Source: Actinomycetes bacterium
Lineage (GTDB): Bacteria; Actinomycetota; Acidimicrobiia; Acidimicrobiales; Ilumatobacteraceae
Direction: 5' to 3'
DNA length: 64,000 nt
Assembly: GCA_021414085.1 (NCBI GenBank)
Contig: JAIOPC010000017.1
Span: 186,001-250,000 of the forward strand
The notes under the pieces were generated by a model. It did no database searches. It was not told where the DNA came from and saw only the letters and a program-made list of their open reading frames with translations. Positions 1,917 through 5,628 of the stretch are shown here, in pieces; positions within the stretch are counted from its first letter, which is position 1, and each line of letters starts with the position of its first letter. The position numbers and the translations under genes were made by a program.

Positions 1917-2540
1917 GTGGCGGACAAGATCGAACGCGCTGAGGTAGTCGAGAGCGGATTCACCAAAGGCTTGACGGATCTGCCATATGGGTTGCAAGTG
2001 CGCGACTTCCGAAACGCGTTGGATGCGCTGTACGACTTCTTTCACGCCGTGAATACCGCCTTGATGGGTCGCGGCTTGGAATGGATGGAGAACCTTGTTC
2101 GCGCCGCCGCCGTTTCGAACATGGTGTCTGACATGGCATCAGCAGCAATTGCGAAACACTCCAATGGCCTCGTGCTGAACCGGCGACACAATGGCCACCC
2201 TGACCTGATTCCGCACGGCACCTATCCTGACGACAAGGTCGAGCACGGCGAGGAAGGTGTTGAGGTAAAGGGCACCCGCGGCAGAGTCGCCGACACACAT
2301 GGCGCGCGCGACAACTGGGTTTGCCAGTTCAACTACAAGGTCGACCCCGAGGCGATCATCGCCAAGCGACGACCAACGATCGTGACCCACATCTATCTCG
2401 CACACGTCACCAAGGAGCTGTATCGGCGCAACGAACGCAAGACGGAACTTGGTACGGACACGTCGACGCTCGACGCAGCGGGCATGGCCGTGCTCCGCAA
2501 GGGCCTGATCTATCAACACCCCGCAACTCCGAAGGGGTAA
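1917..2540 (+). CDS. putative PD-(D/E)XK restriction endonuclease
   Basis: 207 residues, GTG start chosen because a TAGCGT -10 box ends 6 bp upstream. I do not recognise the exact family. The centre carries a PD-(D/E)XK-like core: HPD with D96, then EVK with E116 and K118 about 20 residues later, followed by a hydrophobic strand (WVCQFNYKV). The core is preceded by a helical N-terminal half. The protein precedes a small winged-helix gene and a DNA methyltransferase on the same strand, so it is most simply the cognate type II endonuclease. The assignment rests on motif and context only; another nuclease role is possible. Confidence 0.6.
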   Translation: MADKIERAEVVESGFTKGLTDLPYGLQVRDFRNALDALYDFFHAVNTALMGRGLEWMENLVRAAAVSNMVSDMASAAIAKHSNGLVLNRRHNGHPDLIPHGTYPDDKVEHGEEGVEVKGTRGRVADTHGARDNWVCQFNYKVDPEAIIAKRRPTIVTHIYLAHVTKELYRRNERKTELGTDTSTLDAAGMAVLRKGLIYQHPATPKG

Positions 2541-2544
2541 TCCC

Positions 2545-2572
2545 TTGCTATTGACGTCTGGACGTCTATACT
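2545..2572 (+). promoter_or_regulatory. promoter with tandem GACGTCT operator-like repeats
   Basis: -35-like TTGCTA (2545-2550) and -10 TATACT (2567-2572) are separated by 16 bp. The spacer contains GACGTCT at 2553-2559 and again at 2561-2567, an 8-bp period, and each GACGTC is itself a palindrome. The ATG at 2580 lies 7 bp after the -10 box, so the transcript should be leaderless. A protein bound to the repeats would sit between the promoter elements and block or remodel RNA polymerase. Confidence 0.55.
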
Positions 2573-2579
2573 CATCGCG

Positions 2580-2795
2580 ATGGGAACAAGTGTTCGGCGC
2601 CCGCCCGGCGAGATAAGGGACGCGATCGTGGCGTTCTTGCGAGCGCGCAACGGTGACGCAAGTGTGGCGGAAGTCTTTACCGCCGTTCAGAAGCGAGTCA
2701 GAGGAGACGTGGCGCGTTCCTCGGTCCGTAGTTATCTCCAGATTGGCACCGGCATCGAACGCACGGAAAAAGGCCGATACCAATGGAAGGCGTGA
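2580..2795 (+). CDS. small winged-helix DNA-binding protein of the R-M unit
   Basis: 71 residues. The pattern is a typical winged helix: an amphipathic first helix (EIRDAIVAFLRARNGDAS), a second helix (VAEVFTAVQKRV), a recognition helix with basic and serine residues (VARSSVRSYLQ) and a short beta wing (IERTEKGRYQWK). It overlaps the start of the methyltransferase gene by 13 bp (4 bp, GTGA, if that gene starts at GTG 2792), so the two are co-translated. Two roles are plausible: a controller (C-protein-like) that binds the GACGTCT repeats in its own promoter, or a specificity/accessory domain for the methyltransferase. It is not a classical Xre-type C protein. Confidence 0.65.
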   Translation: MGTSVRRPPGEIRDAIVAFLRARNGDASVAEVFTAVQKRVRGDVARSSVRSYLQIGTGIERTEKGRYQWKA

Positions 2796-3685
2796 CCGGA
2801 TACGAGTACGAGCTAGCGACGCTCTACCACGCCGACTGCATCGAATGGCTTGACGCTCAGCCCGAGAAGTCGATTCACGGTGTTGTGACTGATCCGCCAT
2901 ACGGAATCGTGGAGTACAACGAGACTCAGCAGACCAAACTGCGCTCCGGGACCGGTGGTGTGTGGCGTATCCCACCGTCATACGACGGACACAAGCGTTC
3001 GCCCATTCCGCGGTTCACGACACTGACGAAAAAGGATTTAGCCGACCTTCAAAAGTTCTTCGCTGAATGGGGACGAGCCGTGCATCGCGTTCTAGTGCCC
3101 GGTGCGCACATCATGGTCGCCAGTAATCCGCTCGTCTCGTATCTCGTCGCGATGTCGCTTGTCGAGGCCGGGTTTGAGCGGCGTGGTGAGATCACCCGTC
3201 TCGTGCAGACGATGCGAGGCGGCGACCGTCCAAAGGGTGCGCATGACGAGTTCGACGACGTGTCGGTAATGATGCGATCACAGATGGAACCGTGGCTCGT
3301 CTGCCGCAAGCCGTTCGAGGGCACAGTGGCTGACAACCTGCGTAAGTACGGGACGGGGGGACTTCGCCGCATATCGGCCAAACAGCCCTTCGGCGACGTG
3401 ATCCGGTCCGCGCCAACCGGCGTGCATGAGCGGGCACTTGCTGACCACCCAAGTCTTAAGCCCCAGAATTTTCTACGCCAAATTGTACGTGCCGTGCTTC
3501 CCCTCGGTGAGGGCATCGTGCTGGACCCATTTGCCGGTTCAGGTTCGACGCTCGCCGCTGCGAACTTCGTCGGCTACCAGTCGATCGGCGTCGAGGCGGA
3601 CTTGCGATACATCAGAGTCGCAGTCGACGCGGTGCCCCGTCTCACTGAGTACAAGAACGGTGCGCCACCGGTTTGGACGAGTTAA
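2783..3685 (+). CDS. site-specific DNA methyltransferase, beta class
   Basis: 300 residues. Catalytic motif IV is DPPYG at 37-41 and the AdoMet-binding motif I is DPFAGSGS at 248-255, so the order (IV, target recognition, I) is that of beta-class N6-adenine or N4-cytosine methyltransferases. The roughly 200 residues between them hold the target recognition domain. DPPY is compatible with either adenine or cytosine N-methylation. A GTG at 2792 forms a GTGA overlap with the stop of the winged-helix gene and is a credible alternative start. It acts with the putative endonuclease at 1917 as a compact type II system. Confidence 0.85.
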   Translation: MEGVTGYEYELATLYHADCIEWLDAQPEKSIHGVVTDPPYGIVEYNETQQTKLRSGTGGVWRIPPSYDGHKRSPIPRFTTLTKKDLADLQKFFAEWGRAVHRVLVPGAHIMVASNPLVSYLVAMSLVEAGFERRGEITRLVQTMRGGDRPKGAHDEFDDVSVMMRSQMEPWLVCRKPFEGTVADNLRKYGTGGLRRISAKQPFGDVIRSAPTGVHERALADHPSLKPQNFLRQIVRAVLPLGEGIVLDPFAGSGSTLAAANFVGYQSIGVEADLRYIRVAVDAVPRLTEYKNGAPPVWTS

Positions 3686-3728: not shown

Positions 3729-4343
3729 TCAAACCACCTTGGTCGTCGGCCTAACCCAACCATCGATCAACATTTCCGGAATTGATGGGCGCTCGGGCAC
3801 TACACCGAGGTCGTTGATCCCGCCGCCCGACCAGTAGGTCTTCCACAACTTCTGAGCGAACTCTCGTGTCACGCTGCCCGCTTGGTACATCCCATTTGCA
3901 ATCGATGCGATCTCCATGTCGCAGATCGAAGTCCGCACGGCGAGGTACTCCATCTCGGCAACTTGTTGAAGGTCCCACTGATGAAGCTGATTGACCAATT
4001 GACACGTCTCAAAATCGGGAAACACGAAGAGTGCTGCGAGTCGAGAGGGGCAGTGCGGAAACTTCTCGGCGCGAACGAGCTCAGCGTCGGCTTCGAGTTG
4101 TGCTTGCCAGCCGATTCCCAGTCGCTGACCGGCGAAGGGCGACAAGAAACCGCCGTGCGACGCATCCGGCTGTTGGTCGATCCGCCAGTGGATGGTCCCG
4201 GAGATGAGTTCTTCGAGGCGACTGTCGAACAGGCCGCACGACGCAGAACAAAGGCGACCGCCACCGACTCGAAGATTGTTGGCCGTGACCCAGTTTCCTT
4301 GATTCAGGAAGATGAAGCAGTGTGGAAGCTCTACATCGTCCAC
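3729..4343 (-). CDS. orphan protein of unknown function (possibly ADP-ribosyltransferase-like fold)
   Basis: About 204 residues on the minus strand. The start is set at GTG 4343 because a perfect AGGAGGT (plus-strand 4350-4356) stands 6 nt upstream; a longer frame begins at 4373. The protein has no membrane segment. A conserved-looking central stretch (PSRLAALFVFPDFETC, then a tryptophan-rich region and YWSGGG) recalls proteins of the DUF2441/ADP-ribosyltransferase-like group, but this is an impression, not a match. It sits between the R-M unit and a decayed gene, so it is probably accessory cargo. Confidence 0.55.
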   Translation of the reverse strand: MDDVELPHCFIFLNQGNWVTANNLRVGGGRLCSASCGLFDSRLEELISGTIHWRIDQQPDASHGGFLSPFAGQRLGIGWQAQLEADAELVRAEKFPHCPSRLAALFVFPDFETCQLVNQLHQWDLQQVAEMEYLAVRTSICDMEIASIANGMYQAGSVTREFAQKLWKTYWSGGGINDLGVVPERPSIPEMLIDGWVRPTTKVV

Positions 4344-4349
4344 GGGTTG

Positions 4350-4356
4350 ACCTCCT
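4350..4356 (-). promoter_or_regulatory. perfect Shine-Dalgarno sequence AGGAGGT
   Basis: Read on the minus strand, AGGAGGT lies 6 nt before GTG 4343 and fixes that start over the in-frame GTG at 4373. Such a strong site is unusual in this window, where many genes look leaderless. Confidence 0.6.
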
Positions 4357-4409
4357 GTCGTCGCAAAGTTCACGAGAATAGGCGCTGACTCCGTTTGTTC
4401 ACGTGACGT

Positions 4410-4667
4410 TCACAGCTGGAAGTCTGTGGCTCCCGTATCTAATGGAGTAGGCCTGGCGTTGGCCCTACACGCGTGTTCGTATTCTGAGAATTGACGCTCT
4501 GACGAAGACTTGAATTGCATACTCGTCGGACCCAACACGTTCAGCCAGAACAGTTCGACGTACTGACTGCGTACTTCGAAGCCGACCGCCTCAACGATTG
4601 GGTCGTGCCACGGGACCACCATCACAGTTGGGGCGTTGACGTTAAAGGTGAACGGTGGGAGCGTCAT
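4410..4667 (-). pseudogene. fragment of a conserved actinobacterial protein
   Basis: 85 codons. Residues 14-48 (PTVMVVPWHDPIVEAVGFE, then RSQYVELFWLNVLGPT) follow a pattern I know from a widespread actinobacterial protein of roughly 160-200 residues, in which 'W.DP.V...G.dpRS.YVE.FWL.VLGP' is followed by a winged-helix-like segment ('TTWLLRRL'). Here the frame departs from that family straight after LGPT and ends about 35 unrelated residues later. This suggests a truncation or frameshift and a dead or dying gene. Confidence 0.5.
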
Positions 4668-4782
4668 GACTACCCCTATGTGCGCGTCGCGGAGAACAGA
4701 GGGAAGCCGTTCAACAGCACTGGGTGCAGTCGGCGCGGCCGAGCGGCAACGCGCTCCGTGCCCGTCGCTACTTACCCCGCCG

Positions 4783-5628
4783 CTACTTACGAGGTTTGAC
4801 GGCCGGTGGAGCGCTGGCGCCGTAGCCCGTCGTTAGGCCTAAAGCGCCTGCCACCGTGAAACTCAGATGGACGTGGTCGTAGTGGCCGACGTCGCACTCA
4901 CGAAGGTCGAGGTAGGTGGTCGCGCCAAGCTCACTGTCCTTGGACGTGTCCCAACACCTATCGAAGAAGATGATCTCTTGCACTCCAAGTCGGCGCGCTC
5001 TGGCCGCCTTGTTGCCCGCGGCGTCGGGTGCGAGCAGCCATTCGATCATCGCCGTGCCGTGGGCGATGCGCTGGCGCCCGGAGCCTTTGCCAACCAAGAA
5101 GTCGGAGGCTCGCCCCTGCGCGTGATTGCTCCAACAGTCGCTGTAGAAGTGAAGTGGCAGTTCGGCACCAGGACCAGGTGCGGGATAGATCTGGCCATCG
5201 CAGTTTCGGTTCGTCTTTGAGAGCAGCAACTCTCGACACTGGCCAAGTGTTCCTCGCCCGGCCCAAGTGAAGATGGTGCGCATGTACGCGGAAGCGGCTT
5301 GCGTTCCCGGCAGCAGCAGCGCTTGCCTGACGTCTTCGTCGGTGCGGCCGTAGGCGAAACACACTTCCTCGATCGTGCCTTTGTCGTCGCGTCGGTCGAA
5401 AAGGTTGCTCGCCTCGATCGGGGTGGTGAAGTCGATTGGGTCGCCTGGGACCGCGACGGTCGCGGCGGCAAACGTTCCTGCAGTCGCATCGCCGACGCTG
5501 AAGTGAGCGGCGACCAGGCACGACACAAGGCTGAACGCGATCAGGCTTTTCGGCGCACGTTTAAATCGTCGGATAGGGGAGAATACCCGGATGTCGTCTC
5601 TGACCGATGCGCAGGCATGGGTGCGCAC
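4783..5628 (-). CDS. secreted LAS/M15-like peptidase-fold protein
   Basis: About 281 residues from GTG 5628; the frame is open to 5721. A signal peptide is clear: RRFKRAPKS, then the hydrophobic stretch LIAFSLVSCLVAA. The C-terminal half carries the metal-site pattern of LAS/M15-like (ARB_07466/VldE-type) proteins: HAQGRASDF with the His and Asp, an intervening helix, and HYDHVHLSF near the C-terminus. The expected role is zinc-dependent cell-wall peptide cleavage outside the membrane. No ATG, GTG or TTG lies between codon GTG 5628 and the signal peptide, so its 5' end overlaps the start of the divergent sirtuin gene. The substrate is unknown. Confidence 0.7.
   Translation of the reverse strand: MRTHACASVRDDIRVFSPIRRFKRAPKSLIAFSLVSCLVAAHFSVGDATAGTFAAATVAVPGDPIDFTTPIEASNLFDRRDDKGTIEEVCFAYGRTDEDVRQALLLPGTQAASAYMRTIFTWAGRGTLGQCRELLLSKTNRNCDGQIYPAPGPGAELPLHFYSDCWSNHAQGRASDFLVGKGSGRQRIAHGTAMIEWLLAPDAAGNKAARARRLGVQEIIFFDRCWDTSKDSELGATTYLDLRECDVGHYDHVHLSFTVAGALGLTTGYGASAPPAVKPRK

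Follow-up and report, generated by a model that had tools for sequence, protein, structure and literature searches.

How is the methyltransferase of a restriction-modification (R-M) system regulated when the gene that precedes it encodes a predicted winged helix? The C proteins of type II R-M systems are Xre-type helix-turn-helix proteins, and a small winged-helix protein in a comparable position is therefore unlike them in fold. The question was raised by an earlier note on the window, which is the whole 64,000-nucleotide stretch of DNA analyzed here. The note described an R-M unit with two GACGTCT repeats between TTGCTA and TATACT, followed by a gene for a 71-residue winged-helix protein overlapping the methyltransferase gene, and proposed a new type of R-M controller. 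The repeats were confirmed at 2553-2559 and 2561-2567, between the two hexamers, and the features of the region are listed below.

1917-2540, + strand: likely restriction endonuclease gene, 207 aa, GTG start, PD-(D/E)XK-like
2545-2550, + strand: -35-like hexamer TTGCTA, from the promoter scan
2553-2566, no strand assigned: candidate operator GACGTCTGGACGTC, two palindromic GACGTC with a 2-nt spacer, within the -35/-10 spacer
2567-2572, + strand: -10-like hexamer TATACT, from the promoter scan, in a layout resembling that of relatives
2580-2795, + strand: predicted winged-helix protein, proposed regulator, 71 aa, from an AlphaFold model and Foldseek
2783-3685, + strand: beta-class amino DNA methyltransferase, 300 aa from ATG 2783

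The 207-aa, 71-aa and 300-aa genes are codirectional in the window. The methyltransferase matched PF01555 (E 2.5e-19) and the PADLOC profile MTase_II (E 4.3e-111), and its beta class was assigned from the motif order, judged by eye, together with the PF01555 match. In 82 of 96 family loci a homologue of the 207-aa protein is encoded next to the methyltransferase, and the locus in the window has the type II layout of methyltransferase and predicted restriction endonuclease genes side by side. These matches uphold its reading as an R-M unit. The first gene downstream of the repeats is indeed the 71-residue protein, whose ORF lies in another frame than the methyltransferase and overlaps it by 13 nt from ATG 2783 or by 4 nt (GTGA, shared with the winged-helix stop) from GTG 2792, a possible start that may be the true one. 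Directly 5' of the R-M genes, at 169-1866, lies a 565-aa GmrSD-type gene (PF03235 and PF07510; PADLOC HEC-06, E 4e-167), and the region therefore forms a small defence cluster. On the other side, a 214-aa ORF on the reverse strand (3729-4373) is convergent to the methyltransferase, sits where relatives carry the restriction gene and gave a weak, sub-threshold DUF2441 match. It was rejected as a second restriction enzyme, being unrelated to the restriction gene by BLAST, and a ribosomal L19 match was set aside as weak.

The 207-aa protein matched no Pfam family. Its AlphaFold model (pLDDT 91) had no Foldseek match at E <= 0.001, the best being SwaI at 9.7e-3. In a second-look structural aligner type II restriction enzymes ranked first, led by NaeI (Z 10.2 over 146 residues, 3.4 A) and followed by SwaI, 3ndh, EcoRV and SfiI at Z 6-7. 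The PADLOC profile REase_II was matched by 29 of 59 members of the restriction-gene family (E <= 0.01; best 2.2e-5), and the restriction-enzyme profile had no match among the sequences of solved structures. The 207-aa protein is likely the cognate restriction enzyme. The gene is convergent to and downstream of the methyltransferase in 78 of the 82 loci, and the window order, with the restriction gene upstream and codirectional, is shared by one other locus only (L095). Two relatives carry variations of their own. The restriction-enzyme homologue of L008 (3967-4890) is longer at its C-terminus by about 90 residues, which look like another winged helix by eye. In L013, a distant family member without a winged helix, a 73-aa helix-turn-helix gene (4578-4799, reverse strand) overlaps the restriction gene, as if a classical C protein had replaced the winged-helix controller.

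Structure prediction was also applied to the 71-aa protein. The AlphaFold model (pLDDT 81) has the order H-E-H-H-E-E, its best Foldseek match is the Rok DNA-binding domain 5zuz (E 5.6e-4), and winged helices, among them Rok and cullin WHB domains, make up its best structural matches. The protein is thus a predicted winged helix. No HTH_3 or Xre family was found among the 25 of 33 Pfam families listed for 68 members, and the winged-helix profile returned nothing significant against the sequences of solved structures. Of the 68 members, 11 matched HARE-HTH (PF05066) with E values of 10 or less (best 0.0011), and the 71-aa protein was not among these.

A promoter scan of 2440-2640 returned a single site with 9 of 12 matches (shuffle mean 0.1), in which TTGCTA and TATACT are separated by 16 nt. 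The final T of the second GACGTCT is also the first T of the -10 hexamer, and the palindromic core is GACGTCTGGACGTC. Because the -10 hexamer ends 7 nt 5' of ATG 2580, the winged-helix mRNA could be leaderless. Composition alone is not decisive for the repeat, since 0.84 operator matches are expected in window shuffles when up to one mismatch is allowed. The exact GACGTC-NN-GACGTC occurs once in the 3.2-Mb genome, and a reversed-pattern control occurs not at all. The repeat rises above chance because it is conserved in other genomes, and a chance origin was ruled out on that basis.

To follow this conservation, 96 loci, the top-scoring members of a larger family, were collected through methyltransferase similarity, independently of the operator. 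The sampling covered the best 80 of 560 relatives, nine plasmids (L005-L013) of 97 matching records and one phage (L014) of 383 records. Of 515 viral relatives found, 80 were kept; the three closest (L095-L097) were classified and L098-L174 (20-53% identity) left aside. Exact GACGTC-NN-GACGTC is present in 76 of the 96 loci. Loci were sorted by winged-helix presence with profile searches at E 1e-3, the profile seed being 11 sequences from loci that all bear the operator. Five more loci brought the final table to 101; L207, a short contig with a winged helix and no methyltransferase, stands outside it.

The search for such repeats beside winged-helix and methyltransferase pairs, which the earlier note had proposed, gave a clear result. 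The exact operator is present at 81 of 83 loci with a winged helix versus none of 18 without one, some of which could contain one that has diverged beyond the reach of the profile. By state, the operator counts are 60 of 61 for winged helices fused to the methyltransferase, 21 of 22 for separate ones and 0 of 18 for loci without one. Homologous units without the repeats thus occur only where the winged helix is missing, besides two exceptions: L018, with a contig that starts at the winged helix, and L094, with a single mismatch in its operator (GACGTATGGACGTC) and with SSVQSCL in place of the consensus SSVRSYL in the third predicted helix. The 81 of 83 counts separately two pairs with identical methyltransferases (L004/L079 and L031/L204) and two near-identical pairs (L008/L043 and L010/L011). 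The winged-helix loci span nine named phyla, as given by record titles, many of them of metagenome bins. The survey shows that, at the level of sequence, the winged helix and GACGTC-NN-GACGTC go together.

The association was also met from the side of the winged helix. The operator is present at L182 (tblastn E 1e-13) and L184 (1e-10), found by winged-helix similarity alone (the third hit of that search, L183, is the contig of L095), and at the winged-helix hits L204-L207 (E 4e-20 or lower), of which L204 has a methyltransferase identical to that of L031. The operator is absent from the weaker, more distant winged-helix hits that have no such methyltransferase nearby (L178-L181 and L208, with E from 8e-11 for L178 to 2e-4). 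Family methyltransferases without a winged helix, at 63-70% identity to that of the window, lack the GACGTC pair as well, which makes it unlikely that the methyltransferase itself needs the operator. A single GACGTC lies within 360 nt 5' of the methyltransferase core in two of the 18 loci without a winged helix (L036 and L083).

Fisher's test of winged helix against operator gave p 4e-18, with kinship ignored and with the three upstream-truncated loci (L018, L028 and L033, upstream < 360 nt) dropped; these were also excluded from the tree contrasts and kept in the 83 and 18 counts. A quick methyltransferase tree (101 rows, 99 different sequences, 35 of 96 inner branches open) requires at least 10 changes in winged-helix presence, and at least 16 among the fused, separate and absent states, on the best tree. 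Well-supported branches provided three independent contrasts, whose agreement averaged 2.9 of 3 over 200 pairings with none opposite, and the sign test on these three gave p 0.25.

Fusion is the commoner arrangement: in 61 of the 83 loci the methyltransferase begins with the winged helix as its N-terminal domain, and in 22, including the window, the winged helix is an ORF of its own. Actinomycetota accounts for all 12 of the split loci assigned to a named phylum, and also has two fused loci and five without a winged helix. Among the other split loci 18 were checked, and 10 of them are compatible with the 4-nt overlap of methyltransferase start and winged-helix stop. Several loci carry unusual arrangements around the operator. 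On a Microvirga plasmid (L009), a second, divergent winged-helix gene (2335-2532, reverse strand) lies opposite the fused winged-helix methyltransferase with a single operator between the two, and no restriction gene of the usual kind was found there. Extended operators occur in L026 (3605-3626, three GACGTC in a row) and L063 (3704-3747, two full pairs), and L010 has an extra single GACGTC 5' of the pair, upstream of 871.

The promoter context is shared by many relatives. A sigma-70 match of at least 8 of 12 surrounds the operator in 44 of 83 copies versus 0.8% of random positions, the other 39 copies falling below that level. Among the 44 promoter-matched copies the -35/-10 spacing is 17 nt in 29, 18 nt in 11 and 16 nt in 4. 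Across 78 operator copies the commonest bases are TTGACA at -9 to -4 and T-A-A-T-x-T directly 3' of the operator, and of 76 copies, 62 have TA, CA or TG as the central dinucleotide of the operator. An in-frame ATG or GTG lies 9-19 nt 3' of the operator in 46 of 76 loci, which is compatible with leaderless mRNA. The upstream regions of the restriction genes contain no operator pair, and a single GACGTC occurs in 3 of 73, about what is expected from the density of the loci; an operator at the restriction gene as well was ruled out on these figures. Because the restriction gene has no operator, direct control seems limited to the methyltransferase operon.

We propose, with a probability of roughly 0.8, that the winged helix is a sequence-specific autoregulator of the methyltransferase operon. 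From the promoter layout alone we infer autorepression, over activation, as the simplest reading, because a near-consensus promoter with the usual spacing needs no activator and should fire unaided, while occupation of its spacer by a protein should shut it off. An R-M operon that opens with a small-protein gene and has a tandem operator at the promoter of that gene would also be expected of an activator-repressor resembling the Xre C proteins, one that activates at low levels, represses at high levels and controls the restriction gene too. That reading is unlikely, for the operator falls within a spacer of normal length and not 5' of the -35 hexamer, the promoter is often near consensus, the restriction gene lies convergent to the methyltransferase in 78 of 82 loci and has no pair in its upstream region, and the predicted fold is not Xre. 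We give as little credence to a non-regulatory role, in which the winged helix serves the methyltransferase as a subunit for DNA contact or activity and became detached in some lineages, the promoter pair having some other function. Such a role would fit the 61 fused loci and the overlapping frame of the split ones, but the 18 members without a detectable winged helix also lack the operator, so the winged helix seems dispensable for the enzyme. Its relatives also precede an unrelated methyltransferase family, and a subunit leaves the fixed promoter operator unexplained. The possibility, raised earlier, that the 71-residue protein is a stable subunit of the methyltransferase was half true, as the winged helix is part of the enzyme in the fused loci and a protein of its own in the 22 others. 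The winged helix might depend for its action on fusion to, or a complex with, the methyltransferase.

Under autorepression, the winged helix, probably in the form of a pair of dimers or a single tetramer, would bind the paired palindrome and exclude RNA polymerase from the promoter. On entry into a naive cell no repressor would be present, the promoter would fire and the methyltransferase would protect the DNA. As the winged helix accumulated, the operon would fall to a low steady level, at which methyltransferase would not build up and invading DNA would stay unprotected. The restriction gene, without an operator, would probably be expressed separately. In the split form both proteins would come from one, possibly leaderless, mRNA, and the overlapping stop and start would keep them in a fixed ratio.

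Comparison with known systems places this proposed control closer to one class of regulator than to another. The consulted sections of a 2025 review name C proteins, methyltransferase-fused helix-turn-helix domains, promoter methylation and antisense RNA as R-M regulators (PMC12707154). Ecl18kI, SsoII and EcoRII have methyltransferases fused to a helix-turn-helix repressor, that of EcoRII repressing only when its sites are methylated, while CfrBI, AhdI and LlaDII are controlled by promoter methylation (PMC12707154). The term 'winged helix' comes up at three places of that review, in connection with modification-dependent nucleases, in an author note and in a reference; the review was the sole match in our literature search, which found no description of a winged-helix R-M controller. 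The portions of a second paper that were at hand deal with C-restriction-enzyme fusions (PMC3850674), and those of a third with winged helices that sense 6mApT in the nucleases DpnI and HhiV4I and in wH-fusion nucleases (PMC11037411). From what these portions describe, the 6mA readers are alike in tying a winged helix to DNA modification; theirs are nuclease domains reading 6mApT, whereas the winged helix here is linked to a methyltransferase and GACGTC contains no ApT.

The closest functional parallel is with the methyltransferase-repressor fusions and not with C proteins, because 61 of 83 loci encode the winged helix and the methyltransferase as one protein. The DNA-binding N-terminus of M.Ecl18kI, M.SsoII and M.EcoRII acts at its own promoter, and the layout here is consistent with the same own-promoter repression. 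The fusion that characterizes these dual-function repressors is found in the family but not in the separate window protein. M.Ecl18kI, M.SsoII and M.EcoRII are C5 methyltransferases with a helix-turn-helix, whereas the present enzymes combine a beta-class amino methyltransferase with a winged helix, which is a separate protein in 22 of 83 loci. The restriction gene is moreover convergent in 78 of 82 loci, so that overlapping R and M promoters are absent there. With the C proteins the system shares a small, separate regulator in the R-M operon and a symmetric tandem operator that would lie at its own promoter, the conserved pair standing 5' of the winged-helix gene in 81 of 83 loci. Unlike theirs, the operator lies inside the -35/-10 spacer and the winged helix is coupled to the methyltransferase and not to the restriction gene, with which the layout does not suggest co-transcription (convergent in 78 of 82 loci and 5' of the operator in the window). 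A resemblance to CfrBI, AhdI and LlaDII would lie in the system's own site, which may sit in the methyltransferase promoter; unlike in those systems, a dedicated predicted DNA-binding protein accompanies the sites. The controller reading of the earlier note is supported by the pairing of winged helix and operator (81 of 83 versus 0 of 18), with the amendment that the proposed regulator would be an autorepressor linked to the methyltransferase, more like the methyltransferase-repressor fusions than the C proteins. Methyltransferase-linked autorepression is known, and what would differ here are the winged helix, the other methyltransferase class and the detachable domain.

A second methyltransferase family bears on what the operator may be. 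Relatives of the winged helix also precede XamI-type methyltransferases on actinobacterial plasmids; the restriction gene of L185 matches PF09572 (E 6e-53). The GACGTC pair is absent from the XamI-type loci with a winged helix, and one or two copies of GTCGAC, which we take to be the XamI recognition site, lie just 5' of the winged-helix gene in all five loci where it is intact (L185-L189). Four of these loci are distinct, with GTCGAC within 70 nt where 0.02-0.08 are expected from the density of each locus. Two other XamI-type loci (L203 and L214) have an unrelated small protein, ribbon-helix-helix-like on sub-threshold Pfam matches (E 0.0013 and 0.0048), and carry GTCGAC-NN-GTCGAC in the promoter, with the same geometry as GACGTC-NN-GACGTC. 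The near-identical L199 and L200, with a HigA-type regulator, have one GTCGAC 32 nt 5' of the regulator gene and another at the methyltransferase start. No GTCGAC occurs at that place in the XamI-type loci with other regulators (the HigA-like L198 and L201, and also L202 and L215), nor nearby in those without a recognized regulator (L190-L192, L194-L196, L210-L212 and L216). Among these, L190 retains only a broken winged-helix remnant elsewhere in the locus. L213, also without a recognized regulator, has one GTCGAC 319 nt upstream, and the fragments L193 and L197 were kept outside the comparison. The small regulator 5' of the methyltransferase in L202 and L215 is a different one with a palindrome of its own (GGATACAC...GTGTATCC), another controller type within the XamI-type R-M family.

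By analogy, the XamI parallel hints that the operator may be the very sequence that the system recognizes, which would be GACGTC for the window system. In its full form this explanation holds that methyltransferase and restriction enzyme both recognize GACGTC, that the promoter pair acts as sentinels whose methylation state alters winged-helix binding, and that methyltransferase expression tracks the methylation level of the cell; we rate its chances as even. It draws on the GTCGAC sites at the five intact winged-helix loci, on the paired sites of L203 and L214 and the single sites near the regulator gene of L199 and L200, and on the precedents of promoter methylation in CfrBI, AhdI and LlaDII and of EcoRII repression at methylated sites (PMC12707154). 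Yet GACGTC is avoided neither in the genome (1475 copies versus 1373 of the reversed word) nor in the operator-bearing loci (observed/expected 0.84, rank 24 of 64 palindromes), and site avoidance was dropped as evidence for a GACGTC target. The 63-70%-identical methyltransferases that lack both winged helix and pair indicate that the enzyme alone needs no pair, and several XamI-type loci with other or no regulators have no GTCGAC nearby. Both words, moreover, consist of GAC/GTC half-sites, and related winged helices could simply share a half-site. Literature searches on GACGTC operators, AatII and ZraI genes, winged-helix autoregulators and XamI yielded nothing usable. A wider version is tentative, at slightly less than an even chance: a widespread self-sensing switch in which at least two unrelated methyltransferase families keep paired copies of their own site (GACGTC, or GTCGAC in the XamI-type systems) in the methyltransferase promoter, read by a winged helix, fused or free, or, in part of the XamI-type systems, by a ribbon-helix-helix protein, so that expression would follow the methylation of the genome.

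These observations suggest that the R-M systems of this family may control themselves through a winged-helix switch, of which we found no description. The coexistence of fused and separate forms offers a natural model for how a controller leaves or joins its enzyme, and the proposed controller, with its exactly conserved operator, is found in records from nine named phyla. AatII and ZraI recognize GACGTC. If the operator is the recognition site, the methylation-feedback circuit would be directly testable with either of these commercial enzymes, and the specificity of uncharacterized R-M systems would be readable from promoter sequence alone.
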